Below, piece after piece: positions 3,505 to 62,165 of a stretch of DNA of 64,000 nt. This stretch comes from Anadara kagoshimensis (taxonomy: Eukaryota; Mollusca; Bivalvia; Arcoida; Arcidae), in the NCBI GenBank assembly GCA_021292105.1, contig CM037871.1, positions 52,180,700 to 52,244,699 of the forward strand, in the 5' to 3' direction. Position 1 is the stretch's first letter. Every line of letters begins with the position of its first letter. The position numbers were made by a program, and so were the translations under genes. The notes below the pieces were generated by a model. The model was given only the letters and a program-made list of their open reading frames with translations. It made no database searches and had not been told where the DNA came from.

Positions 3505-3548
<44 letters not shown>

Positions 3549-6367: not shown

Positions 6368-7396
6368 CCATCATGATGATAATGATGATGATGATATTAT
6401 TATTATTTATACAAAGAAACATACTGGGTCACTTTAATCGTGAAAACTATTAATCTTAAGATTCGATCAACTTTAAATAAAAGGGTATCTTTAAATCAAT
6501 ATATTTTTCATAACAGAGTGGCGTCTTTTCTTTAAAATGAGAATTATGATCATCTATAACACCAATTTATGAAGTAAATGAAAAGCATACAGTGTCTCAA
6601 TGTGTTTTATTGGGTGGTACAGAAATAAATTCATATAGTATAATTTCAAATGATTCTATAGCGTTTTTCTTCAAAAATTGAGTTTATGACGTCATAGAAA
6701 CGTCACAGTAATAGCTACACCAATCAAGTTTGTACTTTATAAAAGCTGAAGCTGTTCCCTTTACAATGATACCAAATATGATCTATATCTACATAATATC
6801 ATCGACAACAAAGATAAAAACGTTCCCCTACCCCGTTTCGATCATTTTTTTAAAAATGGCTATCTTTAATATATTTTTTCTAATAGAGTGGTGTCTTTTA
6901 TCGAAGATGAGAATATATGATCATTTATAACTACAATTCATTAAGTAAATGGAAAACATACTTTGTCTTAATGTGTTTTATTATGCTGTACAGAAATAAT
7001 TTTATAAAGGATAAATTGACACGATTTTATAGCGTTTTTCCTTAAAACTTGTGTTTATGACGTCATGGTGACGACATAGAAGCAGCTACATCAACCAACT
7101 TTGTATTTTATAAAAGCTGAACATGTTCCCTTTACAATGGTACCAAATATGATCTGTATCTGCATAATAATATTGAAAACAAAGATAAAAACGTTCCCCT
7201 ACCCCTAATAGAGAAATTTACTGAAAACTTTCAGGTACTCTTAAATATTGAAGTTTTTCATGAAGAGCATCCCAACTTATTTCTGGGAAACATCCCGATT
7301 CCATTACTAGACACCCTAAGGTACCAGAAAAAAGTGGTGTCGGAGGATCCTTGGGGGGGGGGGGGTGCACGGTGGGTCCACCTAGCCCACGGACTA
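5850..7396 (-). repeat. Right arm of element A
   Basis: Inverted copy of 2516-4030. The most obvious difference in the outer part is the length of the C/G run next to the terminus (near 2551 and 7358). Confidence 0.85.
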
Positions 7397-10556: not shown

Positions 10557-11061
10557 AGTGATGATGAACACCTCCAATCAAACACAACTCAGTGTCAGAG
10601 TCCTTCTATTGCCTTTTTGTTTCCACTTCTTTGTCTTGGTGTCTTCTATAATCAATACAACATGACTTCTAAGATTTAAGCTCTTGCGAGTTATTTTTCT
10701 GGTGAATAAAAATTTGAACCTGTAAATTTAAATAAATTATTAATTAAATAACATAAAATAGTGACTGATGAGGGTATCAGGTCAATTCGACACGCAGTAA
10801 ATTCGCCCCCACATTTATCAAATTTGCACCCGTTCAAAATCCTCCCAACACCCACATGACTATGGGGATCAGATTTGGTAAAATTAAAACAAAAAGAAAG
10901 AAAAACAGCCAAAGTTATGCTCTGTTTGTATTACCATTATTGTAATTGCCATGTGCTACTTTTGAATGATTATTTATAAAAATTCAGAAGCAGCACATGA
11001 CATAACAAAACATCACAATGAATCTGGTCCTTGTGTACATCAGGGATGAAGATTAGCAGGG
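10557..11061. other. Upstream region of the C19orf12-like gene
   Basis: Presumed 5' untranslated region and promoter, on the minus strand. I see no clear TATA box or 5' exon. It ends at an assembly gap, so an upstream exon may be missing. Confidence 0.4.
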
Positions 11062-12061
11062 NNNNNNNNNNNNNNNNNNNNNNNNNNNNNNNNNNNNNNN
11101 NNNNNNNNNNNNNNNNNNNNNNNNNNNNNNNNNNNNNNNNNNNNNNNNNNNNNNNNNNNNNNNNNNNNNNNNNNNNNNNNNNNNNNNNNNNNNNNNNNNN
11201 NNNNNNNNNNNNNNNNNNNNNNNNNNNNNNNNNNNNNNNNNNNNNNNNNNNNNNNNNNNNNNNNNNNNNNNNNNNNNNNNNNNNNNNNNNNNNNNNNNNN
11301 NNNNNNNNNNNNNNNNNNNNNNNNNNNNNNNNNNNNNNNNNNNNNNNNNNNNNNNNNNNNNNNNNNNNNNNNNNNNNNNNNNNNNNNNNNNNNNNNNNNN
11401 NNNNNNNNNNNNNNNNNNNNNNNNNNNNNNNNNNNNNNNNNNNNNNNNNNNNNNNNNNNNNNNNNNNNNNNNNNNNNNNNNNNNNNNNNNNNNNNNNNNN
11501 NNNNNNNNNNNNNNNNNNNNNNNNNNNNNNNNNNNNNNNNNNNNNNNNNNNNNNNNNNNNNNNNNNNNNNNNNNNNNNNNNNNNNNNNNNNNNNNNNNNN
11601 NNNNNNNNNNNNNNNNNNNNNNNNNNNNNNNNNNNNNNNNNNNNNNNNNNNNNNNNNNNNNNNNNNNNNNNNNNNNNNNNNNNNNNNNNNNNNNNNNNNN
11701 NNNNNNNNNNNNNNNNNNNNNNNNNNNNNNNNNNNNNNNNNNNNNNNNNNNNNNNNNNNNNNNNNNNNNNNNNNNNNNNNNNNNNNNNNNNNNNNNNNNN
11801 NNNNNNNNNNNNNNNNNNNNNNNNNNNNNNNNNNNNNNNNNNNNNNNNNNNNNNNNNNNNNNNNNNNNNNNNNNNNNNNNNNNNNNNNNNNNNNNNNNNN
11901 NNNNNNNNNNNNNNNNNNNNNNNNNNNNNNNNNNNNNNNNNNNNNNNNNNNNNNNNNNNNNNNNNNNNNNNNNNNNNNNNNNNNNNNNNNNNNNNNNNNN
12001 NNNNNNNNNNNNNNNNNNNNNNNNNNNNNNNNNNNNNNNNNNNNNNNNNNNNNNNNNNNNN
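11062..12061. other. Assembly gap (1000 N)
   Basis: Exactly 1000 N, the usual placeholder for a gap of unknown size. The open frames that appear to cross it are artefacts. Confidence 0.99.
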
Positions 12062-21222: not shown

Positions 21223-22560
21223 TAGTCCAAGAGATAATGGCTAAAATCCGGGTGAACGAGGCCAAAAGGTTTGAGGGTTGATTCTTGTTGGAAAATGTCC
21301 CTAGTTACTGAAAACCAATTTCTTACGCGTCAAATCGTTTCCGATTTTTTAATCAGAAACAGTTTTTGAAGAAAAGCCTCTGCAAATTCTAAATTTTGGT
21401 AAAAAATAAAAATTCCAGATTTTGAAGCATTTTGTGGCAAAAACAACACAAAAATTTTCATTCTATCTTTCATTGTGGACACATGATAGATTAAAATGCA
21501 AAACTTCATGACAGTTTTCCGATTTTGTGTCAAAATTTTAAAATAAGCGATAAAATCGATGCTGTAAACTGCGTTTTTACCATATCTACCGTCTTTCGAT
21601 TCTTGTAAATCTGTTGTTTATGCATTAAATATGACAAACTATATATTTTTATAAAGCCTTGGTAGTCCTTTAGATAAAAATGTTACAAAACTTCGGAAAT
21701 ATGGAACCTTAATACCGTAGCAAATTATTATATTTCCCCTACCCCAAAAATACAAACATGTCAAAAATTCATTATTTTGGCCCATGCTTGCCGATAAGTG
21801 TTTAAAACAAAACGTTATTGTTTGTTACATCTCCCGTCTGTTCCCAACTTATTTATAAAACAATAATATGTAGAGTGTTTGGTGATTTTATATGAAAATT
21901 TGCACTTTTCATATAACAATAGTTTGGAAATGGGTTTTCATTAAATCTTTTGTACTCTGCTTCTTGTAATTTTGTTATATCGGCATTGAATCTTGAGATT
22001 TATAGGTTTCTGTATTGCCATGGCACATTTGAGTCTGTCTGACAACATAAAAAACTATCGGAAATACCGAAGTTTATAGTGGAAACGGATAAATTTATTT
22101 CCCCTACCCCAAAATTGAAAAACGTGAAAATCGATTTTTATGCAATATATGCCAATTTGTGTTTCTAAAGAAGATTTCGAGCAAAAGTACCCGCAACAAT
22201 GATAAAACAAGCTTCGAGGATTTTAAATATTTGTGAAATGCTTTAGCTTAAGGACAGATAGGACTAACTAATATAATAAAATTGCTTATTTTATTCATTT
22301 ATACGTAAAATGCTATAAGAAAAAAGGAGCCTCGCCTCTTGTATTTTTGTTATTTAGGCATTGAATCTCGACTGTTTTCTATTGACGTAATTTCTTGTCA
22401 TATAAGAGTCTTATAACACCAAAAACTGTCGGAAATAGCAAAGCTTGTAGAAGAGGCGAATAAATTTATTTCCCCTACCCCAAAATTGCAAAAAATGTGA
22501 AAACTCTGTTTTAGCCAATATGTAACAATTAGTATTTCTAATGAAAGTTTCAAGCAAATG
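21223..22560 (+). repeat. Left arm of element B
   Basis: Built of diverged subrepeats of about 365-371 bp that each run through 'TCTTGTAATTTTGTTATAT', a CGGAAAT block and a CCCCTACCCC box. It pairs with 24920-26218. A further unpaired subrepeat continues to about 22900. Confidence 0.8.
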
Positions 22561-24919: not shown

Positions 24920-26218
24920 ATGGACACTTGCTTAAAACCTTCACCAAAAGCATACATGGCCTAAAAAGGTTTTTTCATACTTTTGGGGTAGGGGAAATAA
25001 ATTTATTCGCCTTATTTACAAGCTTTGCTTTTTCCGACAGTTTTTGTTGTTATTAGACTCTTATATGTAAAAGAATTACGTCAATAGAAAACAGTCGAGA
25101 TTCAATGCCTAAATAACAAAAATACAAGAGACGAAGCTCCTTTTTTATAGCATTTTACGTATAAATGAATAAAATAAGCAATTTTATTATATTAGTTAGT
25201 CCTATCTGTCCTTAAGCTAAAGCATTTTATAAATATTTAAAATCCTCGATGCTTGTTTTATCATTGTTGCGGGTACTTTTGCTCGAAATCTTCTTTAGAA
25301 ACACAAATTGGCATATATTGCATAAAAATGGATTTGGGGTAGGGGAAATAAATTTATCCGTTCCACTATAAACTTCGGTATTTCCGATAGTTTTTTATGT
25401 TGTCAGACTCAAATGTGCCATGGCAATATAGAAACCTATAAATCTCGAGATTCAATGCCGATATAACAAAATTACAAGAAGCAGAGTACAAAAGATTTAA
25501 TAAAAACCCATTTCCAAACTATTGTTATATGAAAAGTGCAAATTTTCATTTAAAATCACCAAACACTCTACATATTATTGTTTTATAAATAAGTTGGGAA
25601 CAGACGGGAGATGTAACAAACAATAACGTTTTGTTTTAAACACTTATCGGCAAGCATGGGCCAAAATAATGAATTTTTGACATGTTTGTATTTTTGGGGT
25701 AGGGGAAATATAATAATTTGCTACGGTATTAAGGTTCCATATTTCCAAAGTTTTGTAACATTTTTATCTAAAGGACTACCAAGGCTTTATAAAAATATAT
25801 AGTTTGTCATATTTAATGCATAAACAACAGATTTACAAGAATCGAAAGACGGTAGATATGGTAAAAACGCAGTTTACAGCATCGATTTTATCGCTTATTT
25901 TAAAATTTTGACACAAAATCGGAAAACTGTCAGGATGTTTTGCAATTTAATCTATCATGTGTCCACAATGAAAGATAGAATGAACATGTTTGTGTTGTTT
26001 TTGCCACAAAATGCTTCAAAATCTGGAATTTTTATTTTTTACCAAAATTTAGAATTTGCAGAGGCTTTTCTTCAAAAACTGTTTCTGATTAAAAAATCGG
26101 AAACGATTTGACGCGTAAGAAATTGATTTTCAGTAACTATGGACATTTTTCTTAAAGAATCAACCCTCAGACCTTTTGGCCTCGTTCACCCGGATTTTAG
26201 CCATGATCTCTTGGACTA
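24920..26218 (-). repeat. Right arm of element B
   Basis: Inverted copy of 21223-22560. The outer subrepeat is very similar to its partner; the 67-codon frame found in both arms reflects that identity and is not called as a gene. Confidence 0.8.
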
Positions 26219-28103: not shown

Positions 28104-28320
28104 GAAAATGAAAGGTGATGGTCATTGTTTTTTTTCCGTGCAGTGAGTACTTGTTCAATGAAATATCAAGATTATGGCATATTAGATGACTATAACGTTA
28201 CATGGGATTGTAATGATAGTGTATCAGTCCAGTCGGTTAAATTCAAACAACATTCTGTGAATAAAAGTACTTCTTTGTAGTTATTACTAAACATGTTGTA
28301 AATTTAGCAGCATTATATTA

Positions 28321-28365
28321 CAGTTTCGAGGCAAAATTCTCCATCAGTAGTGCTAAGACAAGAAT
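28321..28365 (-). pseudogene. Hammerhead ribozyme relic
   Basis: On the minus strand AGCACTACTGATGGAG, a short stem II and CTCGAAAC keep the left half of the core (CTGATGG, GAAAC); the cleavage triplet and 3' strand of stem I are lost. The body after it (TTTCAAGATGTTAAAATG) matches that of the complete copy at 37693. Confidence 0.55.
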
Positions 28366-28454
28366 TGTGGAAATTCAAAATATTTCAAGATGTTAAAATG
28401 AAGAAATAATAATAATAAAAACACACACACACACACACACAAAGAAAATGCATT

Positions 28455-28960: not shown

Positions 28961-28998
28961 AACTTATTATTTTACTTACAACTTATTTATATTTTCAG

Positions 28999-31900
28999 TT
29001 AAAGCACAGAGCAATGCAACAGCTTCAACACAAACAGCAAACACCGTAGTAGAGCAATCTTCACCACTTTTTAACTTTCGGGATTTACCTGCGGGATTAT
29101 TTGGAATAGACCTATCTTCTAAAACTGCACCAACATCCAAATCTGGGTTAAAGGTTGATCTTCCACCTGCTCTTGACAGTCTTTCTGTTACGGGAACTAA
29201 TTCAGCAGTAGATCCAACAAGCTTTTTTAAAAGGGAGATAATATTTCCACAAACCGCTCTGATTAATGCTGTAAGGTCAGGCACAGACGTTCTTATTCCA
29301 AACACCTTTCTTGGCTCAGACGAAACACTGGAAACAGGAATTCAAAATGATCAACCGATAACTGAAATAAATTTACCAACATTTCAAAGTGGATCGATTA
29401 CATCACCGTTTACTGGAAAATTTCCAGCGGCAGTGGGAAAATTTCCGGCAAATGATAATTTCATTGCAAATGGTTTACCAACTACTGAGCAGACCTCGGG
29501 ACTGGATACTGTTTCGATCGCGGGAGGATTTCTTCCAAATGAAAATTCAGTTCCTAATTTAAATACTATTTTATCTGGCGGCGGAGATACACCAAAATCG
29601 ACATTAGATAAGGGCACACACGATACAAAACCTTCTCTATTGGACAATGCAATAAGTGAACTTCTTCCGCCTCCGTTACCAACAAACGCAAAATTACCAC
29701 CCGTAAATCTAGTGGACCAGCCTTTAATTTTGCCAATAGTTCATGATACAACACCGACCCCAGATGTTCTACCACTTTCTTTGGAACCTTTAGCTTCTGA
29801 AAATCCAACTGTCAAACCCGTGTCTATTCCATCAACAACAAAATCTACTTTAAGTATAGATTCGAATCCAGCTGGCCATTCTGAAAATGTTGTATCGGTT
29901 CCTTTGGTTGCGCAAACTAACATAGAGAACACTAATGTAAACACAACCGGTAACGTTGTGACAATGAAACAAAGTTTATTACCTGTTCCTTCTGCCAGTA
30001 ACTTGACGACAGAATCATCAAATGGGACATCAACTGCAGTAAACGTTATTAATCAAGCATCAACAACGTCAGAAATGCTTCCGCAAAACAAATCGAACAA
30101 TGTGGCATTGAATTCTATTCAAAACATTCAAGCTAAAATTAATGCAGAGGCATCTTTAAATCCCCCGATACCTATAGAACTCGTTAGTGAAAAAGATAAT
30201 GTGAACCAAATCGTCAATTCGCAATTGATAGATATGAAACAAGATAACATTAACAATATAAACCGGTTAATAGATCTCCCACTAATAACACAAAACAGCT
30301 TAATAGACAAACCGAGCAGCCAATTTCTAGGGAACAACATAGTGTCATTAAAAGAAAGTCTGACACACACTCCAAATAACGGTGATTTTGTGCCATTGCC
30401 TGTACCGGATATTCTTTTGGATAAAAGCGCATTAAACGCGAAAAAGGAAAAACCGACATTTACTTCGCAGTTAGATACAAATTCTCCTTCCTTGGCTTTT
30501 ACCAATCCATCGACGCCATGGGAATCATGGTTACAAAACTCGATACTTAACAAAAATGGCGACAAAAAGGTGGACTCTACAGTTGCCCAAGCGATACAGA
30601 GCACTATCGAAAATTTAAAACAACTAGGATTAACAACAGGTGCTGATAACGGAATATCCTCAAATACAAATTTAAAAACAAGTGTTGAAAACACAAAAAC
30701 ACTATCAAAGGAATCAAATGTAATAATCTCACCAGTTTTATCAGCAAGTATTGATATAAGTCCAAAAGTGGAGAAAACTAATACACAAGAACAGGTTCAA
30801 ATTGCTCAATTAAATAATTTAGCTGCTTCTGACAATTCCAAAGTGACGTTACCCACAAATCCTGTTGTAGCAGCAGGAATAATACCCCAGGCAAATGCAG
30901 CAGGGACAATGTCCCAGGTAAATACAGCAGGAACATTTTCCTTAGGAAATTTAGCAGGAACGTTACCCAAGCTAAATTCAGCAGGAACATTACCCCAGGT
31001 AAATACAGGTGGGACAGGAACATTGCCTCTACTAAATGCAGCAGGATCATTGCCCCAGGTAAATACAGCAGGGACATTACCTTTAGTTAGTGCAGCAGGA
31101 ACATTGCCACAGGTAAATCCAGTGGGAACATTACCCGAGGTAAATAATATAGGTGTACAACAAACACCTATTACAAGTCCGACGATATTAAACAGTATAC
31201 AAAATATGAATTTGGACAATGGAGCCTCTACACAATCCAGTGACAATTTTGCTGTTCATAGACGATTGATGTTACCAGCTTCCAGGCTAGGAGAGGCATT
31301 ACGACTTCTCCAAGGAGGCACTACATCGGGAGTCACAGGGAACGCCCCATTACAAAATCAGTTCATCATTGATGAAATCAAACCAGTAGGTGACAATGAT
31401 GCCGCAACACAATCATTCTTTGTTTTTCGACCATATTATTTAAATGGCGGCAACGTTAATGATATTATTTCCTCTTTAAGTAATATTGTTTCTACGTTGA
31501 ATGGACAAGCAGTTGCAAGTCAAGGGGCTGCTCCTGCCATAGATGGTGCTTCTCAAGACCAAGTTTCTCCTGGTACTGATGCACAGAACACAAACACCGT
31601 CGGTGTACCTGTTAATTTCGATGCAGGAATCAGCGCGACTCCTCTTGTCTTGTCATCAAATTTAGTTGATCCAACGACCAATTCTGTAAATTTAAACGCG
31701 GGTAACCAGCCGTCTCCAAACACTGTACAACAGATTCCTGATACCATCACTGATACATCACCAAGTGGAAATGTGGGACTTATCCATCCTTCTATAAATA
31801 GTATTAATTCAAATGCAAATGTACAGATCTCAAACGACATTCTGAGTAATCTAATGAGTGGTCCTAGTTCATCGTCATTATTAACAGATGTTCCAATCAA

Positions 31901-34280
31901 CAGTAATGTTTTGACGCCCGACCCAAACAATATTCTTGGGTTATCACAACCACTAATACCGTCTAATGCACTTGGAAATAACAATGTTCTTACACCTAAC
32001 TCTGTTCTTGGTTTAGGCCAAACTCAAAATCCAGGTTTATTAGGTTCTCAACAACTTACACCATTTAACACATTAACTGATACAACGACAACTGGGGGAT
32101 TGTCTGTAGGCGGTCAGAGTAATACAAATCAGCCAGAACTACCAAACACACCTAAAGTGATCCGTTTATCTTCAAATCAATTGAACAGCATTAAAACAGG
32201 TTCGTCTGTTTCAATTCTAGATTCACCTAACGCTATACAGGATAATAGTTTTGGTCCTGCAGCGACACCTAATGGAGACAGTGGAATTATTTCTTCCTCT
32301 TCAAATTCCATCCTTCTTGGAGACATAGGAAGAACACAGTCAACAAACGGAGATTTTAATTTACCATTCATGAACCAAATACCAGGATCCATCAATGCTG
32401 ATACAGCCCCAAGGAACAGTCTGCAAGACACGAACGATGGCTCTTTCTCAACACACATTGAAGGGAATGCCCTTGAAACAAACTCTATCATTTCACAGAA
32501 TAGTGAGCCATCCATGCCTTCAACGAACATTCAGCAAACTATAGAAAATCGTTTCGGTTTTGACTCTTCAGCTAACAATGGCGAAATTAATCGAGAAACA
32601 AGTTCCTTTATTTCACCCCCAAATACCGATATATTTTTGTCCCAGAACAGCGTCGGTCAAACAAACAACGCATTTGAAAGTAATAGTTTGGAGTCTTCTA
32701 TAACAAACACCAGAAATTCTCAAGATATTAACAGTAGGATATCAACTTTACAAAATGATCAATCTTTTACGTCACTTAATAGTAGATCATCAACTAATAA
32801 CATTAATAATCAACAAGAACGGAGGAACATTGGTTCTTCAACAAATACCCAAACTCAAAGTGCTACCTCAAATAATGTACAACCACCGTCTCCTACTGAA
32901 GGACCACCGTCGTTGTTGCCAGGACTAGAGAGTCTTTTGGCTAACGTACCAGATAATCAAATAGCGGTTATCAATTTGGATGATAATTTCAACGTTGCAT
33001 CAGTTGATAGGGTTAATAGTGTAGATGAGTTGAACTTCAATCAAAATAGAATATTCAATCCAAATAGATTTAATTCTAATACAGCAAATATTCAAAATAC
33101 TAATAGGTTAAGAAATCAGGCGGTATCATCTTCTGAGAGTGCGACATCTTCAAGCAATATTGGTTCGAACACATCACCTAGGGGTGTTCAGAATTCGCGA
33201 AATGTCAATGAGCAAATAGTGTCGTCGGCGGATGCTAGTGCTCGCGAAAACATAATATCAACATCGCCAGATAGGATCAATCCTATGGAATTTAGTTTTG
33301 GAACTTCGTCGGATTTAAATAATATAGTTCAAACTCAAGCTCAAAGAAATTCTGCAAATGCAAGAGAGGCAACCAGTTCGCGGCAAACCCAAAACAGACG
33401 AGAAAGAAACAGAAATAGAGTAGGAGAAAATAGGGAAAGAACAACCAGTAATCATAGAATAAAAGATAACACAAGAACTAGAAACAACAGGGATAGAATT
33501 GCCCCCAATGAAAATATAAGAAATACACCTGATCAAATTTGGGAAAATACACGACGAAGCAACAGAATCAGAAATAATAACAACAGAAATATTGGTGTTG
33601 GGAATAATGAGAACTTGAACATAGGGATACCATTTAGAGATGTTAACAACAGGCATAGCAGAAACCGACATGTCGAGGAAACAAGGAGAAGACACAATAG
33701 AAATAGAAATACAAGAAGAGAGAATAGTAACAGAGATACTAGGAGAAACAGAAACCAAGACAGTAGAATTAGTGAGAATAGAAATAGAGATAACACAGCA
33801 AGAAATGAGAGAAATCGTCACAATAGAACAAGAGACAATAGAAATAGGGACAATAGAGAAAATAGAAGAGGTCAAAGAAATAGAAACGATCGTTTTAGGG
33901 ACAATAGAAGGCCTAATGATGCAAGACGGAATGATAGAAATAGAGAATGGTTAAATGACAATAGAAACAGAGGGAGGCCAAATGAGAATAACAGAAATGA
34001 TAGAAATAGAGAATCAAATACGAACAGAAACAGAGAAACATCAAATACAAACAGAAACAGAGAAACATCAAATACAAACAGAAACAGAGAAACATCAAAT
34101 ACAAACAGAAACAGAGAACCATCAAATACGAACAGAAACAGAGAAACGCCAAACAATGATAGAAACAGAGGCAATAGACCAAGGAGATTGTTTCGAACCT
34201 GGGAAGAAAGAGGAAATTTCGTTCAAACCATGAGAAGAATTTTACTTGATAATGCTAGAGAACTTCGTTCGAGAATCTAA
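28999..34280 (+). CDS. Secreted gene 1, long exon: cysteine-free Asn/Ser/Thr-rich protein with Arg/Asn-rich tail
   Basis: The frame is open from the acceptor at 28998 to TAA at 34278-34280; with the signal exon it gives 1777 residues. No cysteine was found. Residues about 20-640 are N/S/T/P-rich with many N-x-S/T sites. Residues about 642-735 hold 9-11 degenerate ten-residue repeats of the type AAGTLPQVNT. Residues about 765-860 are the least biased part (RRLMLPASRLGEALRLLQGG, SFFVFRPYYLNGG). Residues about 1465-1777 are Arg/Asn-rich, with five tandem copies of a nine-residue unit NTNRNRETS near 1690-1735, ending in RRILLDNARELRSRI. The protein is probably secreted, disordered and, at its C terminus, strongly basic. 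I recognise no family. A role in an extracellular matrix such as shell or byssus is inference from composition and secretion only. Antisense and shifted frames inside are shadows. Confidence 0.85.
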
Positions 34281-37670: not shown

Positions 37671-38015
37671 TAATTACATATTATACCAGTTTTAATTTTA
37701 CAGCACTAGACGGCCGTTTCGGAATACAATTCCTCATCAGTAGTGCTTGGACCAAAATTATTTTGAAGATGTTGAAAAGCTACCCAAAGGACCAAAATAT
37801 ATTTTACCAAATTAAGCTAAGAAAATACTTTGCATGAGAGAGTATACCTTAGTTTTTGAGAAATTTCAAATTTTAACTTGCAGGAAATTTAGACAGTTTC
37901 AGTATATTTCTGACAATAATACGAAATTATTACCTATTCGGGGCACCAGCCACCAGCAGAGATATCGGCTCAGGGGTTTAAATTACATATTATACGAGTT
38001 TTAATTTTACAATAT
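37671..38015 (-). mobile_element. Retrozyme-like repeat with a hammerhead ribozyme
   Basis: The block ATTACATATTATA..AGTTTTAATTTTAC occurs twice in direct orientation, at 37672-37701 and 37980-38010, exactly 309 bp apart. The ribozyme sits at the first one. This is what a partial dimer of a 309-nt circular RNA would leave after reverse transcription, as known for retrozymes; the second ribozyme is lost just after the shared block. Non-coding. A fragment of a hammerhead-bearing Penelope-like element is an alternative. Confidence 0.6.
37693..37760 (-). ncRNA. Hammerhead ribozyme, type I, complete core
   Basis: Read on the minus strand: helix Ib TAATTTT (37760-37754), internal loop GGTCCA, helix Ia AGCACTA (37747-37741), CTGATGA (37740-37734), helix II GGAAT-TGT-ATTCC, GAAA (37720-37717), a two-pair helix III closing loop GGCC, cleavage triplet GTC (37711-37709), then TAGTGCT (37708-37702), GT and AAAATTA (37699-37693), which pair with helices Ia and Ib. 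All invariant core bases are present and every helix is perfectly paired. Cleavage would fall between 37709 and 37708. The short helix III is typical of metazoan retrozyme and Penelope-like hammerheads. Activity is inferred, not shown. Confidence 0.85.
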
Positions 38016-38230: not shown

Positions 38231-39172
38231 TGTAAAATCGTTAAATGTTTACTGGTTGTAAATTAATTGCAATTAATGAAGACCTTCAAGTACTACATTT
38301 ACTCCAGTGCCCGTCTAAAGTATGATGTTTAATCGTCTTATGTGTTTCTCGTGTCTTTGTTTTATCCGATTTTAGGCGTTCTATCATTTATTTGTATTGG
38401 TTCGTGTTTTCAGAAAGCGTTGACTAGCTAACAACATTATTGCAGCTTCTACTTTTCTTTTTTTATTTGATGATACATTTGCATGCTCATCTTAAATATA
38501 ACCAAAACTCATCAAGTTTAAAGATACGTAAATTCAACTATTTCCTGCTAGTACTAACGCTAAAATCAAATCACTGATTAAAACCACGTCATCTGATGAG
38601 CACTTTGTAACTAACCATGTTGAAAATTAGTGGTCGAGTATACTACGCATTGTTTAGTTGTCATGAATTCGAATTCTTAACTTGTTGTAAAACTATATGT
38701 CATACACTGACGTTTCAAATTTTATGAAATAAAGTATTCAAAAACATCAGATTTTGATTACCTCGTTTCATAAATATTTATTTAAAAATATCACATGACA
38801 ATGCAAAGTTTTGAATACCTTATGTAATACAAATTCACTTAAGATAAGTGTTGACTATTATCATAAAGGCAATGTTGGAGTCGTCATTGCTGTCCTGAGT
38901 GTTTTAAATATCAACTCATTTACATGATACATAATAAAATAAAAACGTACTAGTCCATGTCAAAAATCACAACCCGAAAAGCACATGAAAATATTTGCAA
39001 ACTGGCATATTGAGTTAAACACGTGAACTTCTACTAGGGAATTGAGGTCAGCTGCACCTAAGGGTAAAAACCTCCTGTTTAGCTGTATCAACCACGCGAG
39101 AAATCAAAATTAATAATTGAAAAAACATAGGATATTGGAACATCAAACGCATTCAATAAAATTTTGGATATA

Positions 39173-39983
39173 CAGGTCCATCTAGAAAGTTTGGACACCC
39201 CATAAAAGTAATTCATAGCTAGCCACAAATTTGTTTGTTATAATTACATATTATACCAGTTTTAATTTTACAGCACTAGACGGCCGTTTACAATTTCCTT
39301 ATCAGTAGTGCTCAATTATAACAATTTTTGACATGCTTTATCAATGATTTGTTTAATAGTTGGTTACATGTGACATACCACTAGATCTAATCGATGTAAC
39401 TTGGGCACAATAAAATCGCAAAAGACACTGTTATCTCCCTTTATATATTACAGACACAAAAACGGGTATCCTTTGGCAAAAATGGTTTTAAACAATGAGA
39501 ACAAAGCATCTGTACCACAACATAAGTAAAATGTTTTTTCTAAGTCAAATAATACTATAACACATCTTTTTGCAGTAGAAAATTAATGTTATACAAAATA
39601 TAAATAATCGTTAAATACACTCACCAAAAAATCCCAATTTTACTATATTTCTAAATATTTTAGTATTTTCAATACAGAGGGAATTTTAACAGATAAAATG
39701 ACATATTTTACTTAGAAAGTGTCCAATAATCACTTGGAACTAAGTGTTTAAAGTCGTTTCCAGCATTTTCTATTTATTAAGTCAATATTTGAAGAAATAT
39801 GATTTTTTCACAAATATTTTCATTTTTGATCACTCACTGTTCCCTAAAAACTAAAATAAAAACTTTGATCTATTTTGATTTCAACAAATATAAGTTAACA
39901 AGACACCAAAAAACTAAGGCCATCAAAATTGCTCTTTTACAAAGGTTATAGAAGGGGATGCCCAAACTTTCTGGATGGACCTG
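39173..39983. mobile_element. Tc1/mariner-like non-autonomous element, about 810 bp
   Basis: CAGGTCCATCTAGAAAGTTT, GGACACCCC at the left is inverted at the right (GGGGATGCCC, AAACTTTCTGGATGGACCTG). TA lies at both edges (39171-39172, 39984-39985) and the flanks join into one RT tail. No transposase frame. It carries a hammerhead relic at 39241-39312, so that relic either inserted into it or was carried by it. Confidence 0.75.
39241..39312 (-). pseudogene. Hammerhead ribozyme relic inside the mariner-like element
   Basis: The same TATTATACC..AATTTTAC block and stem I strands (AGCACTA, TAGTGCT) as at 37693, with the GGCC loop and GTC kept, but CTGATAA in the core and part of helix II missing. 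TTGTTATAATT and AATTATAACAA flank it as an inverted pair. Confidence 0.65.
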
Positions 39984-42119: not shown

Positions 42120-42335
42120 TCAAAATAAAAACCGAACATAATTATCCATAGCCAAATCACAATTCCAGTGCAAAGTAAAACTTTGAATCTGGCAAATAAT
42201 ATTAAACACGTGAACTTCCACCTGGGATATAAGTCCGGGTGCTATGGAAAGATAGGCGCCTCCTGTTTTTCTAGCTATATTCACAACGTGTGATCGTTTT
42301 AAAACACCCGGTCTAACGTCCGAGGTAAAACTTTG
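42120..42335 (-). repeat. RT tail
   Basis: TATCCATAGCCAAATCACAA, GAACTTCCACCTGGGATATA, GCGCCTCCTGTTTTTCTAGC in minus sense. A plus-sense tail end follows at once (42355-42410), so two copies abut in opposite orientation. Confidence 0.65.
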
Positions 42336-44389: not shown

Positions 44390-44920
44390 AAATATACAAA
44401 TCCATGTCAAAAATCACTATCCAAAAATAAAGCAACGATTTTGAAACCAGTAAATTAAGGTAAAGACGTGAACTCCTACCAGGGAAGTGAGGCCGGGTGT
44501 TACGGTTGGGTAAACTACACATAACTGTTGCTCTCCTTGACATCAAATGATAACGATGATAATAGGGTCCAGTTCCAAATGGGGTTTTCCCCTTATACGC
44601 GCGATTCAAAGAGAACATTCCCAAATTAGACAGATAATACTTAGATTGGGATATAGTTTGGTCCAAAGGTATGCTGTATTAAAAAGGATAAAGGGTAGTC
44701 CTGGTTATATCATAATCAAAACAATCATTCTAATCCATTATCTAATTGAAATCCAGTAGCAAAGTAAAAACTTTGATACTGTCAAATTAGGTTCAACACA
44801 AGAAGGGAGACCGGGTGCTCTGGAAGGGTAAGCACCTTCTATTTAGCTAGCTACACCCGCCACATGTGTAATCAAAATTGTGTGAAAGGGACATAGAGCT
44901 ATAGGTATATTAATTATGAA
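44390..44920 (-). repeat. Two RT tails with about 200 bp between them
   Basis: 44390-44520 and 44735-44920 keep the tail order (ACCAGGGAAGTGAGGCCGGG; GAGACCGGGTGCTCTGGAAG). The spacer is not recognised. Confidence 0.65.
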
Positions 44921-45725
44921 ATGTGATTATAAGCAAATTGCCTAAAACGTTCGTATCGTGATACAATTTTCTTTCTTCTTAGTAGTAGTAGGACAACAAA
45001 AGAATGTCTCAATTTTAATATTCCGGCATGGCTAGGTAACATCCCAAATTTCAATTCTATTGAGATTGATTAATATACATGTAAATCCAGATATTGATTT
45101 TTGAGTTTTCAACACAACTTAATGATCTGTACAAATCAAAAACAAACTTTGTAACCGACAAGTCACGTTAGAAACGTGAACTTCTACCAGGGAAGTGAGG
45201 CCAAGTGCTCCAGAAGAGTAAGCAATAAAATGAATTGCAAAGTATGACACAAAACAATGATACTTGAACGATCCTGATCGATATATGCCAAGACGCTCGT
45301 GATTAGTACTACTTTAACAATATCTATTGTATATAAATCAGGTCTCATAGGACTAATTATGATTTATAAAATTCATTTAAAAAATTTGTTAAAATAAGTC
45401 AATAATAGAATTTTAAAAAATGAATAAAAGATAAAAATGATAATAAAACAATAAAAATAATAAATAAGATATATATATTGTCATTGTTAAAACCCCAAGA
45501 GTGTGTATTGAAAACAAACGATTTATACAATAAACAGGAAAATCAGTATAAAGAACATCACAGGAGACTCGCATCTTACAATAAGTATTTATGTCAATCA
45601 AAAACAAACATACTAATCCATGTCTGAATCACAATATAAAAGTAAAAACTTTATAAGCTTTGTCTTATAAGACAGATTTCCACGCTGTCGTTCCAATTGA
45701 GTCTAATTTTGCTGTTGTTTTGCAG

Positions 45726-48239: not shown

Positions 48240-48645
48240 GATTATCAAATAAAAAAAGAAAAATACTTAATCCATATCCATACCACAATCTAAAGAAAGT
48301 AAAACGTTTGTGACTGACAAATTAGGTTAAAGACACGAACGTCCACCAGAAAAGTGAGACCGGGTGCTCAGGAAGGATTAGTACGTATCTCCCGTTTAGG
48401 TAGCTACACTAGCCACGTGAGTAATGAAAGTTGAGATTGAAAGAAACATTGAACTACGGGACGTCAAATATATCCAGGGTAATCCTAGAAACAGAGACAT
48501 CATGCTTATCAACAATATTGTGATGACGGCCATACAACTTTTTGAGGGTCTAGGCTTGCAATATACCTGAATCAACATTTTTATAAACAGTTTGGTTCGT
48601 TGTATAAAGTTCCCGTACACATGGCATTTGGTCAATGATGTATAA
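48240..48645 (-). repeat. RT tail with C-terminal coding part
   Basis: One of the longest tails (about 400 bp). In minus sense it starts with a coding remnant (FIQRTKLFIKMLIQVYCK) that matches FIQRSKLLINKLLMQVYCK in the copy at 63105, then runs through the non-coding tail to TCCATATCC. Confidence 0.75.
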
Positions 48646-48953
48646 TATTAAAAGCTCAATTTTATTTAATTTTTATTATGTCCACCAAAAGAAGAAAGGG
48701 GGCAATAAAGTGTTTTTTATTTCATCTGCAAACATTTTATAAATAACTTTTCTCGAAATCTATTAAACATATCTTCACAAGAAAAATAATTTATTGAATT
48801 AGAGGTGTCATTGACATTGTGGAATATATGAAGTCTCGATTGGGGTTTCTTTGGGGCATTTTTTGTCATATTTCATTTATAACTTGTTGGTTCTTTTATA
48901 ATATGACTGATAATATTTATAATAATATTATATGACTAATAATTATTTTTTAG

Positions 48954-51799
48954 GTTTACATACAGTGACGTCATCGGCTCATATGCGATACCCTGGAGTT
49001 CCAATTACCTTTGGTTTTCGGACATCAGAAAGTGGAGGTTTTACTTTTTTCAGCGTCGACAAAAAAGATGAGAATAAATTAGATTCATTGCAAGTGTCCA
49101 ACGTTGTTTCCAAGCCGGTTCCTTCAGATAAAATAAAACAGAAACAACAGAAAAAAGACACTCCATTGGTTAAAGTGCCTCCCGGAAACACAAATACAAG
49201 AACGACAAATAATAATGTATTTAGAACAGCTGTTCCTGTAAATGTCAATGACGACTGGCGATCGATGAATTTCTTTACAAGCAACAAATTAAAAGGAACC
49301 GCTCAAACGAAATCAAATGATAAAAAGAAGAAGGCCAAACTATTGAAAATTGAAGAGGCAAATACGATTGTCAAAAAAGCCAGAAACGGAAATACAATAA
49401 AGGAATCATCGAGAAGTAAAACTCGAGCACCTGTCGATTTATCCTTTAGAGGTAGCCTTGGTATTGGGAACAGGAATTTTGACGACTGGAGTAAATACCT
49501 ACTTGGTCAATACAACTGGATACCAACTTCCGGGAAAACGAACTACGACGAATCTTTAAATAAATATCCAATACTCCCAAACATGATTAATGACAACCCG
49601 TATGAATTATTGGCTATCGATCATAACGGGAAATCTGTGTACGATAAAAAGGTCATGGCAAAATCTAAATTCCTAGCAAATACGCGATCACAAGTTGTTA
49701 AAAACGTCAGCACAAAAAATATCGAAAAGAAAAGAAAACATCGGGTTACTGGTAACACTATACAAGCAGCGCCTAAACTTGCTTTTACTGACGCAAAAAA
49801 TGTTAACATGATTAAAAATAAGGGGATCAAACCCAAAATACTGGGAAATACCAAGTCAGTATGGAGTTTTAAATTACGCGAAACAAAACCTGTGATACCA
49901 AATATACCTAAAGCAATTGACAGCGTCAGTGTAAATGCATCAAAAGAAAACGCTAATATGATGAACAACCGTAGACTTAAAAGTTTTAATACGTTTCGGT
50001 TCTCTCCACTGAGGGAGATAAAACCAGTTAAACCAGTCATTCCTACAAATGCAGAAGATATAGAAAAACCAGTACAAGTTTCTACACCAATGCCAATTAA
50101 AACACCACTCAGTCATGGTATATCAATAGTAAATTCCCCATTACGCGAAGAAAAAACTCCAGTAAAACCATTTATACCAAACAATGTAAATACTATTGAA
50201 AATAAGAATAGTTGGCTGTCGCTTCAACCGAAGATTGAATCAAAGAGTAAACAACGTATCCTAAAGAAACTAAGCTCTAAGATGAAGTCAAAGGAAATGC
50301 CACTAGGAACTTCAACACACGATAACAATATCAAGGAGAAACAAAAACCAATACAAAACAATTTTAGGAAGAAAATAATACCTGTACAAAATAAACAGAA
50401 GCCTAAACGTGTCAGAGTGTATTTATCTGAATTGTCTCCGTCTTATCATCATGAAAATGAAAACCACACAGATGGTGAACTGTCAGATTCTTCTGTGAAA
50501 GATAAGGTATCAGAATCTAAAAAGCAAAAGCAAGTTAAGATAACAAGGAAAGTCCCTATGGCTTCCTGGAGAAGTCGTCCTCAATGGCGTGTTAAATCGA
50601 GCAAGGCGCCAAAAACTGTTGAGACAAAAGTACCAGTCAATGTCATCATGCATAAAAGAGTGTGGCCAAAACTTGACTCTCTTATGCAGGAAGTGAAGAA
50701 ATTAAACGTTATTATACATGAAAATGAAACTAGAACCAACTATACAAGACTAATTTCGAATTCTATTCATGGTTCAAAACCCGGAAAGGAGATTATTCCA
50801 ATATCGCGCTCTAAACAAATTAAAAATAAAGTCATTAAAAAATTAGGGAAACCAAAGCGACTTAGAGGCGGGAACGTTCGTCCAATGAAATCATGGAGGA
50901 GTATATATAAGAACAAACAGATTAAGAAACCTGAAAGTCACTTAAAATCTAATCAAATTGTTGGTTCAAACTTGCGTTTGGGTGACATCTTGTCATCGAG
51001 GTTTCCCGGAAGCACTATTTTGATACCTAATAACCAAGCTGAATCCGGAATAGACAAAATACGGAAACACAAACTAAAAACTTCTAAACTAAGTGAAAAT
51101 CATTTATCAAAATCAGAAAAGGTAACAGACAATAAGTTTACAAGAAAACATCTTAAGATCGCGTCGAGGAATCCATATACGCCCACGGACCAACCAGTAG
51201 CTTCGTCACAAAATGTACAATTAAATGAATTTCAATCCAATTCAAATTTTGTGGCGAATGACAAGGACAATAGCAACATGAGACGAAATACCAATGTAAT
51301 AGACACCTCACGGCTACATGAAAATGAAATCGAAAACGTGCGACCCAAACGAAAGTATCTGTCCGATATATTAAAATCTTCGGATCAGCAGACGGACATT
51401 GGAGATCAAAACCCGGGTTCAAACTTGAACGCATTCCAGCAAAACGTAGTTCCATCAGAAGTCAGCAGCACAGTAACCGAGCACCCAACCACCCAAAGCC
51501 AATTTACGTCAGGTCAGTTAGATACGACGACAGAAGATGTAATAAATCATCATGATTCGAATTACAATGGTAACATGAAAGTTAAAACTCCAGCATTTCA
51601 AACTACCATACCTCCACTTAATGCAGACGACAAGACAACTGGTACCTCCGATATTCATTCCAATACAGGGAACATGATATCTGACAAAGTCCCCGAGTTT
51701 ATGAACCCGTTTGGTCTGACTTTGTTTGACGCTAACATGAAGCCACTCTCCCTAGAAGATATGATTAGCATTTTACAGGATGCGAACATTGCGATATAA
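48954..51799 (+). CDS. Secreted gene 2, long exon: cysteine-free Lys-rich repeat protein
   Basis: Open from the acceptor (ATTTTTTAG, 48953) to TAA at 51797-51799; 966 residues with the signal exon. Lysine-rich throughout, no cysteine found. After the signal peptide is a less biased N-terminal part (YPGVPITFGFRTSESGGFTF; about residue 190, DDWSKYLLGQYNWIPTSGK). Three degenerate repeats centred near residues 325, 370 and 414 share LRExKPVxPxIP. Two copies of PMxSWRS occur near 553 and 661. The last 200 residues become N/S/T-rich and less basic, ending MKPLSLEDMISILQDANIAI, probably a short helix. No family recognised. Its architecture and composition tie it to genes 1 and 3; gene 3 is convergent, with 4.4 kb between the stops. 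Confidence 0.85.
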
Positions 51800-53479: not shown

Positions 53480-53720
53480 AACTAAGTGAAGTTAGGCATA
53501 CTAATCCATGTCCGAATCACAATCCAGAGGCAAAGTAAAAACGTTGGAACTGACAAGTTAGGTTAGACATGTGAACTTCCACCAGGGAGGTGAGTCCGGG
53601 TGCTCCGGAAGGGTAAGCACCTCCCGTTTAGCCAGCCACACCCGCCACGTGTGTAATCAAAATTGTGTGAAAGGAACATAGAACTATGAGACGTCAAATA
53701 TATCCAGGGCAGGTAAGTTT
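53480..53720 (-). repeat. RT tail (good reference copy)
   Basis: CATACTAATCCATGTCCGAA, ACTTCCACCAGGGAGGTGAG, CCGGGTGCTCCGGAAGGGTA, ACCCGCCACGTGTG and GACGTCAAATATATCCAGGG. This copy gives the empty-site reference for element B. Confidence 0.8.
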
Positions 53721-57134: not shown

Positions 57135-59377
57135 CTGAAAAACATAAAGGAAATAATAAATAAACCTGATCGTTTTTACGTTGTAATATTTATTAAGTAT
57201 TGAAAATACAAAATAACATCAAAGTCATTAACTAGAGATGTCATCAATCAATCAACTGTTTGTTAACAATTAAGGTTAAGTTATGTTTAAGTTGGCTCAG
57301 AAATGTTATCTGGCCATATCTACACTATGCATTGTTTAATTGATTCAAATCAATTTACGCCGCTGTTAATAAACCGAATGTTTATCACTGTCAATACAAA
57401 ACATTATCTTTATGTTGATTACAAACCGCAAAAATATTTAATAGGTTTTATTTACATGACCATATAAATAATACCTAATACGACATTCCCATAAACAATA
57501 CATTCAATAAATCATTCAATAATTAACAACTTACACTATTTGTTAACATCACGTATTCCGGGATAAGGCGATACTTATTTGTTTACGTATAAATATTTCC
57601 AGAGCACCCGACCTCACTTCCAAGTTGAAAAGTCGCGTGTTTTTACTCAGTTTTCCCGTTTTCAAAATTTTCGAGTTTTGAATTGTGATTTGAACATGTT
57701 GTGGTATGTTTGTGTTTGATTTAATTGTTTTGCAGAATTTTAAATAATTTTCTTAAAAATGGACATAGTACAATAAGCAATAAAATACTACAAAAAGTTA
57801 TATAGTACAATGTAAAAACATCATATTATATTTATACACGGTTGTTATTTGCGATTAATGTAGTTTACTTTTGGAAGAAAAAAATACACTTTTATTTGCC
57901 GTCATCATAAGTATGTTGATCCTGTATTCAGAGTTATCGTGGATATATTTGACGTCCAAGTATTCAATGTTTCTTTCATTCTTATTTTTATGACACAAGT
58001 TTCGGGTGTAGTTAGATAAAACAGAAGTCGTTTACCCTTCTTGAGCACCAAGCCTTACTTCCCTGGTTGAAGTGTTGATCAGTTTTTGCTATGTTTTATA
58101 GGATTGTGATTTGAAATAAACCGAATTATTTCCCATATCAACAGGATATGGGAATTATAAAACTGCAATATAATTTATATTATTTGATGTATTAGTTGTT
58201 GATTGTTTTATACCTCGTGATTGTGCACGCCTTATCTATCATCGTCACCTGGTTTGACGCACCTGTAGTGATGCATCAGTAATAGATTAGGTCATTGGCT
58301 TGACACTTAATTAGGAAATGATCAATTCCAACGCCATATATTTCAAAATACCTCGTAAGTGTCAGATTAACACAATTTTTATTTTATGTTTCATTACTCT
58401 TGTTGTATTATTTATTTATTTATTTGTTTTGTGTTTTGTTTTTTAATTTAGAAAAGTATATTAAAATGTAGTGGAATTTGATTTTCAACAAAATGCAACT
58501 TCATAATTTCATTATAATCAGAGCATACATTAAAGAGAAGAAAGAAGTCGTGTTTTTATCTTTTAATGAAATGATATCATCTTTGACCTAACATCTTTAG
58601 GTATACAATTATTGTAAATTGAACATAAAGAACTGTATTTGAAAAATATATACTCGTCAAAATAAATATTTATTAAACACGAACAAATGAAACTAGAAAA
58701 CAGAAAAATAAACACAATTATATAACTTCAAATTTGGACGGGTAGCGCTATAGCGACTAATTTATATCTTTAATTTTGTATCATCTTTATGTTTAGGCTT
58801 TTATCTATCGTTAATCAGTGACTGATACTGTGCTCGGAATTTTGTTCACAAAACAGCTAATAAGTAATCTTCCCTGAATTTGTTATTAATTATTACTTTA
58901 TGTTTAAGTGAGTAAGTAAGTAGCAAAATAGATATGGATCATATACAGTAGATATACATGTAATTAAAATGCATATTACAGAAGCATCATTATACATGTT
59001 TTACTAAGTTTTAGCGCGATTAAGAGAGGACCGGTAATCCTTCTCCGTAAAGTTTAAGGTAAATTAAATTATTAAATTATTTAAATATTGTGTTTTAGTC
59101 AATCACAATTATAATGGTCAATGTCCAAATCAAACCTTAGGAAATTAGGTCAAACATGTGAACTTCAACCAGGGAAGAGAGGCTGGGTACATCGTAAGGG
59201 TAAGCACCTCTAGTCGTCTAAAACCGCCACATGAGAAATCAAAGTTGAATTCAAGAGGAGATAAAAGACATACAACGAATGCATTTTCCCACTAAAATTT
59301 TTATATTATTGTAGAAAATCGGTAAACCTTATGATAACATTATCCTAGTTTATAAAACAGAATATTAAAATACTAAC
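57135..59377 (-). other. Intron of secreted gene 3
   Basis: Phase 1, donor G|GTTAGT at 59377 and acceptor at 57135. It holds RT tails at 57590-57715 and 57940-58130 (plus sense) and 59105-59250 (minus sense). No other exon is evident. Confidence 0.75.
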
Positions 59378-59490: not shown

Positions 59491-60028
59491 GGTGTCTTAA
59501 TGATTCAGGCATTAGATATTCGCGTTGGACAATGCATACACCAATCATCTACGTCACGGCTGATCAAATTGTTTATTACTATATCAATTAATGATGTTAT
59601 TTCCTCTAGTCAAAAACAAATAAATCCTGTTTATTAATCTCATTTCACGCCTAGTGATGCAAAACTACTCGCCTTACTGACACAGTTATCAAGCTAATTA
59701 ATCTAATTATTATGCCACGTAGAACCATTCCCTTGCTATCATTTCGGTTTATAGAGTTACTAGTAGTTACATTAGTACAATTTTGTATTCTAATCTTGCT
59801 ACATGTAAATGGTGTCATATAGTAGGAATCCGACTTCATTATTATAGAGTTTTTGTTTGAGAAACCCGACCTCGCTTCCCTGGCGGAAAATCACGCTTTC
59901 TACTTACTTTAATATAATTGTTTTTAAAAAAGTTCTTGTAATTTTTTATTTTTATTTTATGCAATTCTCGATATGAGGAATACTTTGTATGAGGTTATCA
60001 AATCATGTATGTAGAATATTTTGTAACA

Positions 60029-60102
60029 TTACATATTATACCAGTTGTAATTTCACAACACTAGACGGTCGTATCGGAATACAATTCTGCATCAGAAGTG
60101 CT
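60029..60102 (-). pseudogene. Hammerhead ribozyme relic with body
   Basis: Minus strand: GGTCCAAGCACTTCTGATGC, AGAATTGTATTCC, GATACGACCGTCTAGTGTTG. Helix Ib (AATTT/AAATT) and the cleavage triplet GTC persist but core positions have changed (CTGATGC, GATA). The 95 bp after it on the plus strand match the body of the 37671 unit. Confidence 0.7.
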
Positions 60103-60529
60103 TGGACCAAATTTATGAAAATAAAATTGTTTTCAAGATGCTGAAAAGATTACCAAACGACCAACATATATTTTACCAAATGTAGCTAAGGAAATATATT
60201 TTATAATTTTATAAATACGTTTTAAAAAAATTACTACTAAAATCATTAAAATGTATTTTTATAGATAGGTGATTGAAAAAAATTAAAGCTTTTATAACAT
60301 TTATTTTTTTTCGGCATAACACATGTGCAATGCTTAAATGGTAATTATTATAAATAATTGAAAGAATGTCTCACATAAATTAATCAGTCCATTGAATGTG
60401 CATGCAATGTTGTCAAATAGATTGGACAATTCAAAGAAATGAAAATTCTTTTATCGTCGAGTAGGTTCAGTTTTATGGTCGAATCATAAACAAACATACC
60501 GATCCATGTTCAAATCACAATTTCTTAAA

Positions 60530-61660
60530 GCAACTTGGATTAAAAAAATATTGCATACAAAGGGTTCCTGGTGTAATATCTTAGACTGTTACATAGATAC
60601 AGGGAAAATTTTTAGCATAGGAAATGAATTTATTGAAAAGAATATGAAAGACTTTAAAAATGACTTCTGGACAGATGTGTTTAAGGCTTGGATACTATAA
60701 ACAAACAATATTAAAAAATTAAGAATATTTAAAAACGCAGCTGAAAGTTATCTTTGGTATAATAGTGATATTATTATTGAAAATAGTTGTATTTACATTA
60801 AGAAATTATACGAAAAAGGGGTAATATTTATCAATGATCTACTTGATACTGATGGGCAATTTTTAAGCCTGCAAGATTTTATTCGGAAATATAACTACAA
60901 CATACATTATCTTCACTAGACTGGAATAATTGAATCGATAAAACATATGCTGAGAAAAAACATTGAGTATTGTCTGTCTAAATCTGAAACTCCTTTCATT
61001 CCTAACATTCTTAAGATACTTTTTAAAAATGAAAAAGGCTCGAGGGATATGTATAAAATCTTGAAGCAAAATAATATCTTACCTACTTCACTGCAAAAAT
61101 GGCAAAGCATTTTTGATAATTTAACTGAAAATGATTGGAAACAAATATACAAAATTATTCACCTGACTACTCTAAATTCTAAAATAGAATGGTTCCAATA
61201 CAGAATAATTCATAATATAATTGCTACAAATTCTTTTTTGTTTAAAATAGGTATTAAAACAGAGGCATTGTGTAGTTTTTGTAAACAGGAAAGTGAAACA
61301 GTTATTCATCTCTTTTGGGAATGCGATATAGTACAACAATTTTTAGAAGACTTAGAAAACTATTTTTTATCGAATGGTATTTTGTTAGATCTAACAAAAA
61401 TGAGTTTAATTTTTGGATATTGCAGATCGTTTAATAGAGTTAAAAATTTTATCCTTATACATGTAAAATATTACATTTATAAAACCCGTTGTATTGGTAA
61501 AAAACTGTCTGTAAAGTTTAAATAAATTTAAAAGATGTATATTACATCGAAAAAGAAATAGCAATAGGCAAAAATAAGTTAGAACATTTTCAAAGAGAAT
61601 GGCAACACATCCACCGTATTGTTATATAGAACACAAAGAACAATCTTGTATCATAGTGTG

Positions 61661-61822: not shown

Positions 61823-61835
61823 ACAATTTCTTAAA

Positions 61836-62165
61836 CCAAAGTTAAAACTTTAAAATCTGACATATTAAGTTTATCACGTGAACATCCACCAGGGAAGTGA
61901 GACTAGATGTTCCAGAAGGGTAAGCGCCTTCTGATTAGACACACTCTCCACGCGTGAAATAAACATTTACAATAAAAGGATCGTGAAACTAACCATTTGA
62001 CGCCATATATACAGTAGATACAGATACGTCATGTTTTCAACAATATTGTGACGACGGCCAAAATGTTTTGAAGTCCATGAAAAGCCTGAGCTTGCAATTT
62101 GCCAGAGTCAATAATTTATTTATAAGCACATTGCTTCATTGTATAAAGGGAACGTTGTAGGAACA
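61836..62165 (-). repeat. RT tail, continuation after the LINE
   Basis: The tail begins at 60478 (AAACAAACATACCGATCCAT), is cut by the LINE, and resumes here with TTTATCACGTGAACATCCAC, CAGGGAAGTGAGACTAGATG and CAACAATATTGTGACGACGG. Confidence 0.75.

Follow-up and report, generated by a model that had tools for sequence, protein, structure and literature searches.

Introduction

Animal retrozymes make abundant small circular RNAs, and the machinery that copies them into DNA is unsettled. Among the closest described systems are the retrozymes of the mussel Mytilus galloprovincialis, which are repeats of low GC content without a coding region, provided with a type I hammerhead ribozyme (PMC7229834); the same source describes their circles as unusually self-paired, and for elements of this sort it has been published that a ligase closes the circles and that mussel tissue contains circular RNA. 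Tandem units with a type I hammerhead, of 150–450 bp, are described also for the coral Acropora millepora (PMC7229834) and for Nematostella, the latter with 15-bp target-site duplications (PMC4918200). Hammerheads of type I topology occur as well in Penelope-like elements (PMC7229834 and PMC7761336, with reference to Cervera 2014, Arkhipova 2017 and Lunse 2017), where they are minimal, with little helix III, and belong to elements encoding a reverse transcriptase and a GIY-YIG endonuclease. The LTR retrozymes of plants share with the animal ones the self-cleaving unit and the proposed circular RNA intermediate, but they differ in having a type III hammerhead, LTRs, PBS, PPT and 4-bp duplications (PMC4918200). 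Concerning the enzyme that mobilises these repeats, PMC7761336 states that they have no conserved motif pointing to the autonomous element used.

The locus considered here lies in a 64,000-nucleotide stretch of the genome of the bivalve Anadara kagoshimensis (C15:52180700-52244699), which is called the window in what follows. The family to which it belongs is a metazoan non-LTR retrozyme of the kind described in 2020; it is assigned there for its type I hammerhead, its tandem units and their size, its low GC content and its high copy number. The likeness to the mussel elements is one of description, with units of 338–339 bp against 350–390 bp, and 7,984 core matches against about 5000 copies (PMC7229834). 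One difference is that a fixed 3′ end beyond the cleavage site is documented here, such an end being absent from the accessible descriptions in PMC7229834, PMC7761336 and PMC4918200. The ends of the copies open the copying step to experimental test.

Results

A type I hammerhead on the minus strand

An earlier note, made from the sequence alone, had proposed a complete hammerhead ribozyme of metazoan type I style on the minus strand at 37760–37693. All its blocks and stems were located there, in the order CTGATGA, helix II, GAAA, CGGCC and GTC, and the 68-nt sequence is present once on the minus strand of the window. Helix II (GGAAT-TGT-ATTCC) has the perfect 5 bp and 3-nt loop that had been announced; helix Ia (AGCACTA/TAGTGCT, 7 bp) and, past a 6/2-nt internal loop, helix Ib (TAATTTT/AAAATTA, 7 bp) were likewise confirmed by reading the sequence. 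The very short helix III consists of 2 bp closed by GGCC, ACGGCCGT being self-complementary. GTC ends at 37709 and the following base of the minus strand is 37708, so the coordinates given for the predicted cleavage are correct. As far as the sequence goes, the interpretation of this segment as an intact metazoan-style type I hammerhead is supported. The features found in the window are summarized in Table 1.

Table 1. Features of the hammerhead-bearing repeat family, and copies of a second dispersed family, in the window.
Feature	Coordinates	Strand	Basis or remark
Whole hammerhead motif with internal loop and 7-bp helix Ib	37693..37760	minus	sequence, fold
Type I hammerhead core, helices Ia, II and III; predicted cleavage 37709/37708	37703..37746	minus	RF00163, scan
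Retrozyme copy from about 38011 (5′ end) to the 3′ terminus at 37672 (...TATGTAATT), about 1.1 units	37672..38011	minus	terminal repeat, alignment
31-nt terminal direct repeat, 5′ copy	37981..38011	minus	30/31 identical
31-nt terminal direct repeat, 3′ copy	37672..37702	minus	inside the fixed 3′ tail of the family
Second copy, 5′-truncated or deleted	39242..39312	minus	core broken (CTGATAA, helix II collapsed)
Third copy, 5′-truncated	60028..60196	minus	core mutated (CTGATGC, GATA)
Fourth copy, most decayed	28295..28401	minus	CTGATGG, cleavage triplet ATA
GTGAACTTCYACCAGGGAAGTGAGGCC family copies	38980-39068, 42167-42255, 44425-44513, 45133-45221, 48292-48380, 53528-53616, 59115-59203, 61835-61923		

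The covariance model Hammerhead_1 of Rfam (RF00163) matched the motif over its whole length (model positions 1–45 of 45) with 28.1 bits and an E value of 1.8e-5 in a search of 121 nt; rescaled by arithmetic to one family and both strands of the window, this corresponds to about 2e-6. The score lies below the gathering score of 34 bits, and the hammerhead was not listed either in a gathering scan of the whole window or in a 701-nt scan at E ≤ 5. Taken literally, this is the outcome that the earlier note had named as contrary to its claim, a covariance score under threshold. The motif was nevertheless retained because the match covers the full model, its E value is far from chance, and the core is common to thousands of places in the genome.

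A strict scan for the core plus helices found one site in the window, with three parses of helix II, and none in 60 first-order random windows scanned on both strands. As a control of specificity, 17 matches to the core pattern with helix III GCGC or GGCC were obtained in bacterial and viral collections, with a helix I of at most 3 bp and a helix II of at most 2 bp. Exact-pattern scans of viral and genome contig collections yielded nothing related, a 16-mer occurred at 60 loci of the contig collections without the core upstream, and a literature search with a ribozyme sequence string gave no match. The fold stability of the 68-mer was ordinary (z −1.21, 27 of 200 shuffles equally good), which is to be expected since the motif is short and the energy model does not describe the contacts of the core. 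The exact hammerhead fold amounts to −8.7 kcal/mol versus −13.9 kcal/mol for the minimum free energy fold, which retains helix II and most of helix I.

Four copies of a dispersed repeat in the window

The motif is part of a dispersed repeat of which the window holds three more, decayed copies, a fact that had been overlooked in the first reading. The four related copies, at 28.3, 37.7, 39.3 and 60.1 kb, are all on the minus strand, and the core is intact only in the 37.7-kb copy; the hammerhead model gave no match at E ≤ 10 with the other three. The intact copy aligns to a unit of the genomic array described below at 87%, and its period is 309 bp versus 338–339 bp in that array. Counted from the first base beyond the cleavage site, its second 31-nt repeat begins 6 nt further on, so the copy comprises about 1.1 units. 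It has one ribozyme, so any transcript of the minus strand would split once and release no monomer, a point likewise overlooked in the first reading. No stop-to-stop open reading frame of at least 90 aa overlaps 37672–38011.

The family in the genome

The genome from which the window comes (1.115 Gb, 36 contigs) was searched with the core pattern CTGATGA-N8-20-CGAAAC-N2-8-GTC and, as a control, with the same pattern read backwards. The core pattern gave 4015 forward and 3969 reverse matches (7,984 in all), and the control 258 and 9 (267 in all). The asymmetry of the control between strands suggests one unrelated array.

Of the 7,984 places counted, 100 were listed, and 90 of these, contained in 80 stretches, were taken as the sample. 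It is not a random one, as all the places lie in the first 12 Mb of contig C1 and an intact core was required; among the ten listed places outside it is C1:9791378, whose helix II clearly differs. The core sits inside a copy of the same element in every one of the 80 stretches. Considering 83 core-bearing copies, one of them from the window, the median identity to the array unit was 89% (range 76–99%), and at least 6 of the 7 pairs of helix I are kept in 75 of 91 cores. No covariation was demonstrable among 49 inspected cores, since the copies hardly differ from one another and had been chosen for an intact core. Some loci are duplicates, namely L100/L102 and L103/L105 (flanks included), L200/L204 and L202/L205.

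One locus (L086) is a head-to-tail array of five units, with the predicted cuts 339, 339, 339 and 338 bp apart; it starts at TTTAAACCCC and stops at TATGGAATT. This size falls in the range of the class (about 170–400 bp), and 14 of 82 copies exceed one unit in length. The GC content of the unit is 34%, and its body presumably resembles the mussel repeats. The strong self-pairing described for retrozyme circles was not observed: four array units were 63–69% paired, with a stability within that of 60 shuffles each, and the circle of the window unit was 56% paired, 117 of 200 shuffles being as stable.

A fixed 3′ end beyond the cleavage site

The ends of the copies were mapped on 84 loci, the 80 stretches and the four copies of the window, by alignment to a tandem query that introduces no artificial end; of the 104 alignment chains obtained, 83 contain the core. 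In 70 of these 83 core-bearing copies the 3′ end is shared, within a 21-nt span 24–44 nt past the cleavage site, the commonest distance being 38 nt. The sequence of 39 anchored copies agrees through ATATGTAAT, the next letter is T in 82%, and then the copies diverge. In none of the 83 does the 3′ end fall within 4 nt of the predicted cut. Thirteen copies have a different 3′ end; one of them (L177) ends 5 nt and four end 8–13 nt past the cleavage site, although in L146 and L183 the tail resumes right after a small deletion. The 5′ ends are scattered, and none of 82 falls at unit positions 300–308, around the cleavage site; four lie 7–11 nt past it, corresponding to the window copy and to L161–L163, the latter being probable duplicates of one another.

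The 20-mer of the tail occurs 2867 + 2805 times in the genome, and its reversed control 0 + 0 times. Twenty tail places, all outside the listing of the core pattern, were fetched. In 17 of them 59–361 nt of retrozyme are joined to the tail, in another (L211) the retrozyme is interrupted by another repeat, and two (L199 and L203) hold just 27 and 32 nt of the element. Nineteen end at unit positions 2–6 and one continues into the next unit. The possibility that the tail is owned by another element was considered and discarded, as none appeared among the 20 places (18 retrozymes, 2 too short to assign). Selection for an intact core means that tail-only copies derived from cut monomers are absent from the main sample; L199 and L203 could be such copies.

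A clear target-site duplication was found in one of 43 copies, and in one of 38 in a second set, in both cases at the same locus (L096, 31–32 nt). This is the one clear case of a class feature that, when present, exceeds 4 bp, and it contrasts with the 15-bp duplications reported for Nematostella (PMC4918200). Short flank matches scored at least 7 in 13 of 38 copies versus 15% of mismatched pairs, a slight excess of 7–8-nt matches. The near-absence of target-site duplications is odd for a LINE-like insertion.

Penelope-like elements with a hammerhead of their own

GIY-YIG domain matches occur in at least 50 places of the genome, with 150 of 248 candidates scored. Two loci, L131 and L133, encode a reverse transcriptase plus GIY-YIG and carry, about 1 kb downstream, a different, minimal hammerhead-like motif, which departs from that of the retrozyme in all three helices (I, II and III). 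With a 201-base probe taken from the region of this motif, at least 41 matches were obtained, with 40 of 215 candidates scored; 38 of the 41 alignments stop at positions 184–197 and three, including the self-match, at 200 or 201. The Penelope 3′ regions are 95–100% identical to the probe and therefore likely recent. These elements were also seen as inverted pairs and same-strand clusters (L131, L132, L133 and other places).

Five of 12 Penelope ends (L131, L133, L215, L216 and L223) diverge after TTTAATT, TTTAATTAAT or TTTAATTAATT, 64–68 nt past their own ribozyme cleavage site; the other seven run into common sequence, presumably the next unit. The Penelope-like element of this genome thus has, like the retrozyme, a short tail after the cleavage site. 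This hints that both may share one plan (ribozyme, short tail, TAATT-like end), though in so A+T-rich a genome a likeness limited to a handful of A and T letters counts for little, and the tails are otherwise unlike. Another GIY-YIG family (L135, L141) seems by eye to end in a different A/T-rich string.

The locus L141 was rejected as a Penelope-like element with a retrozyme tail, since it holds just a 27-nt match among other repeats. No retrozyme unit encoding Penelope proteins was encountered, the units being of 338–339 bp and without a long open reading frame. A Pfam search of 14 of the 45 open reading frames of at least 90 aa in the window showed no autonomous partner; one zf-RVT domain was found.

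Discussion

The combination of a fixed 3′ end and scattered 5′ ends usually indicates a reverse transcription that begins at one start and stops early. A monomer cut out by the ribozyme is linear and ends at GTC; priming there would yield copies that stop at the cleavage site, and a start at the tail on such a monomer would give copies of 38 nt at most. A fixed 3′ end beyond the site means, therefore, that the RNA template of the ribozyme-bearing copies spanned the cleavage site, which excludes as that template a linear monomer released by self-cleavage and primed at its 3′ terminus. A template that is either a religated circle or an uncut multimer would explain this, and the circle would account for the copies longer than one unit too.

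From what was directly observed, i.e., the ribozyme sequence, a family with tandem arrays, the fixed 3′ end, the scattered 5′ ends and the junction-spanning copies, we consider it very probable that a copy of a metazoan non-LTR retrozyme carries the motif as its self-cleaving ribozyme and that the family moves by the following cycle. Tandem genomic copies would be transcribed, and the hammerhead of each unit would cut after GTC. The resulting monomers of about 339 nt would be religated to circles by a host RNA ligase, as in the literature. An autonomous element, most likely a Penelope-like one, would lend its reverse transcriptase, which would then be primed from target DNA at a single fixed position, some 38 nt downstream of the cut. 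By proceeding round the circle for a variable distance, the enzyme would produce insertions either 5′-truncated or longer than one unit, with a common 3′ end. The more specific proposal that reverse transcription began at a fixed site on religated circles, with the enzyme coming from the co-resident hammerhead-bearing Penelope-like element, is put forward tentatively, as a possibility that we hold with some doubt. If true, it would supply the conserved terminal feature that the 2020 review calls lacking for naming the mobilising element. The tail offers in any case a concrete start site for testing candidate enzymes on circles.

The main rival explanation is that genomic arrays supplied the templates as long linear transcripts left uncut, which would give equally well the junction-spanning copies and those longer than one unit. 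It has to face that the units have an intact ribozyme, and that an exact end at the tail needs a reason, no poly(A) signal or T run being visible there by eye; on balance it seems to us possible and rather unlikely. Another interpretation would make the family an ordinary satellite or dispersed DNA, spread at the DNA level by unequal crossover or extrachromosomal circles, with the ribozyme as an incidental passenger. The existence of tandem arrays, the scarcity of target-site duplications, and the pairs L100/L102 and L103/L105, plainly duplicated together with their flanks, go in this direction. In 70 of 83 copies, on the other hand, a single 3′ end is combined with scattered 5′ truncations, the pattern left by reverse transcription from a fixed start, and DNA circles should open at various points; spread at the DNA level is thus considered improbable.

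It could also be thought that the hammerhead is a remnant of Penelope-like terminal repeats rather than part of a separate non-autonomous family, as Penelope-like elements with their own hammerhead are present (L131, L133), and both types of element stop tens of nucleotides past the cleavage site in a TAATT-like end. Nevertheless, the array is made up of 338–339-bp units only, and the Penelope ribozyme is dissimilar in all three helices. A retrozyme match occurs in 3 of 20 GIY-YIG loci, and these read as separate insertions: those of L130 and L144 are antisense to the GIY-YIG frame, and that of L141 has 27 nt only. This origin appears very improbable. As to a mere chance match, the sub-gathering Rfam score and the ordinary stability of the 68-mer would be in its favour, but the absence of sites in the 60 random windows and the 7,984 core matches versus 267 for the reversed pattern leave it practically no credit; as an account of the sequence feature, chance is already refuted by the genome-wide family. 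The interpretation as a retrozyme copy is therefore the one preferred.

Other features of the window

Two large inverted repeats were observed. The arms of one (2547–3536 / 6370–7359) have 990 nt, are 99% complementary, lie 2.8 kb apart and hold internal direct repeats at a spacing of 371 bp; it is probably a recent foldback or long-terminal-inverted-repeat DNA element, and a 123-aa open reading frame inside it had no Pfam match. The second such element (21223–22037 / 25404–26218) has 815-nt arms, 98% complementary, with direct repeats spaced 365–385 bp. A dispersed repeat family with a block around GTGAACTTCYACCAGGGAAGTGAGGCC has at least eight direct copies among those listed in the window (Table 1), and is probably an old short interspersed element.

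A run of 1000 N, apparently a single one at about 11060–12060, yields false long open reading frames in six frames. Long low-complexity frames of 1772 aa (28962–34280, plus strand), with 27-bp coding tandem repeats, and of 957 aa (48926–51799, plus strand) gave no match in Pfam, and are possibly large exons of secreted or structural proteins. Finally, the zf-RVT domain (E 1e-10) is located at 60920–61525 on the plus strand, and marks a probable remnant of a non-LTR retrotransposon.
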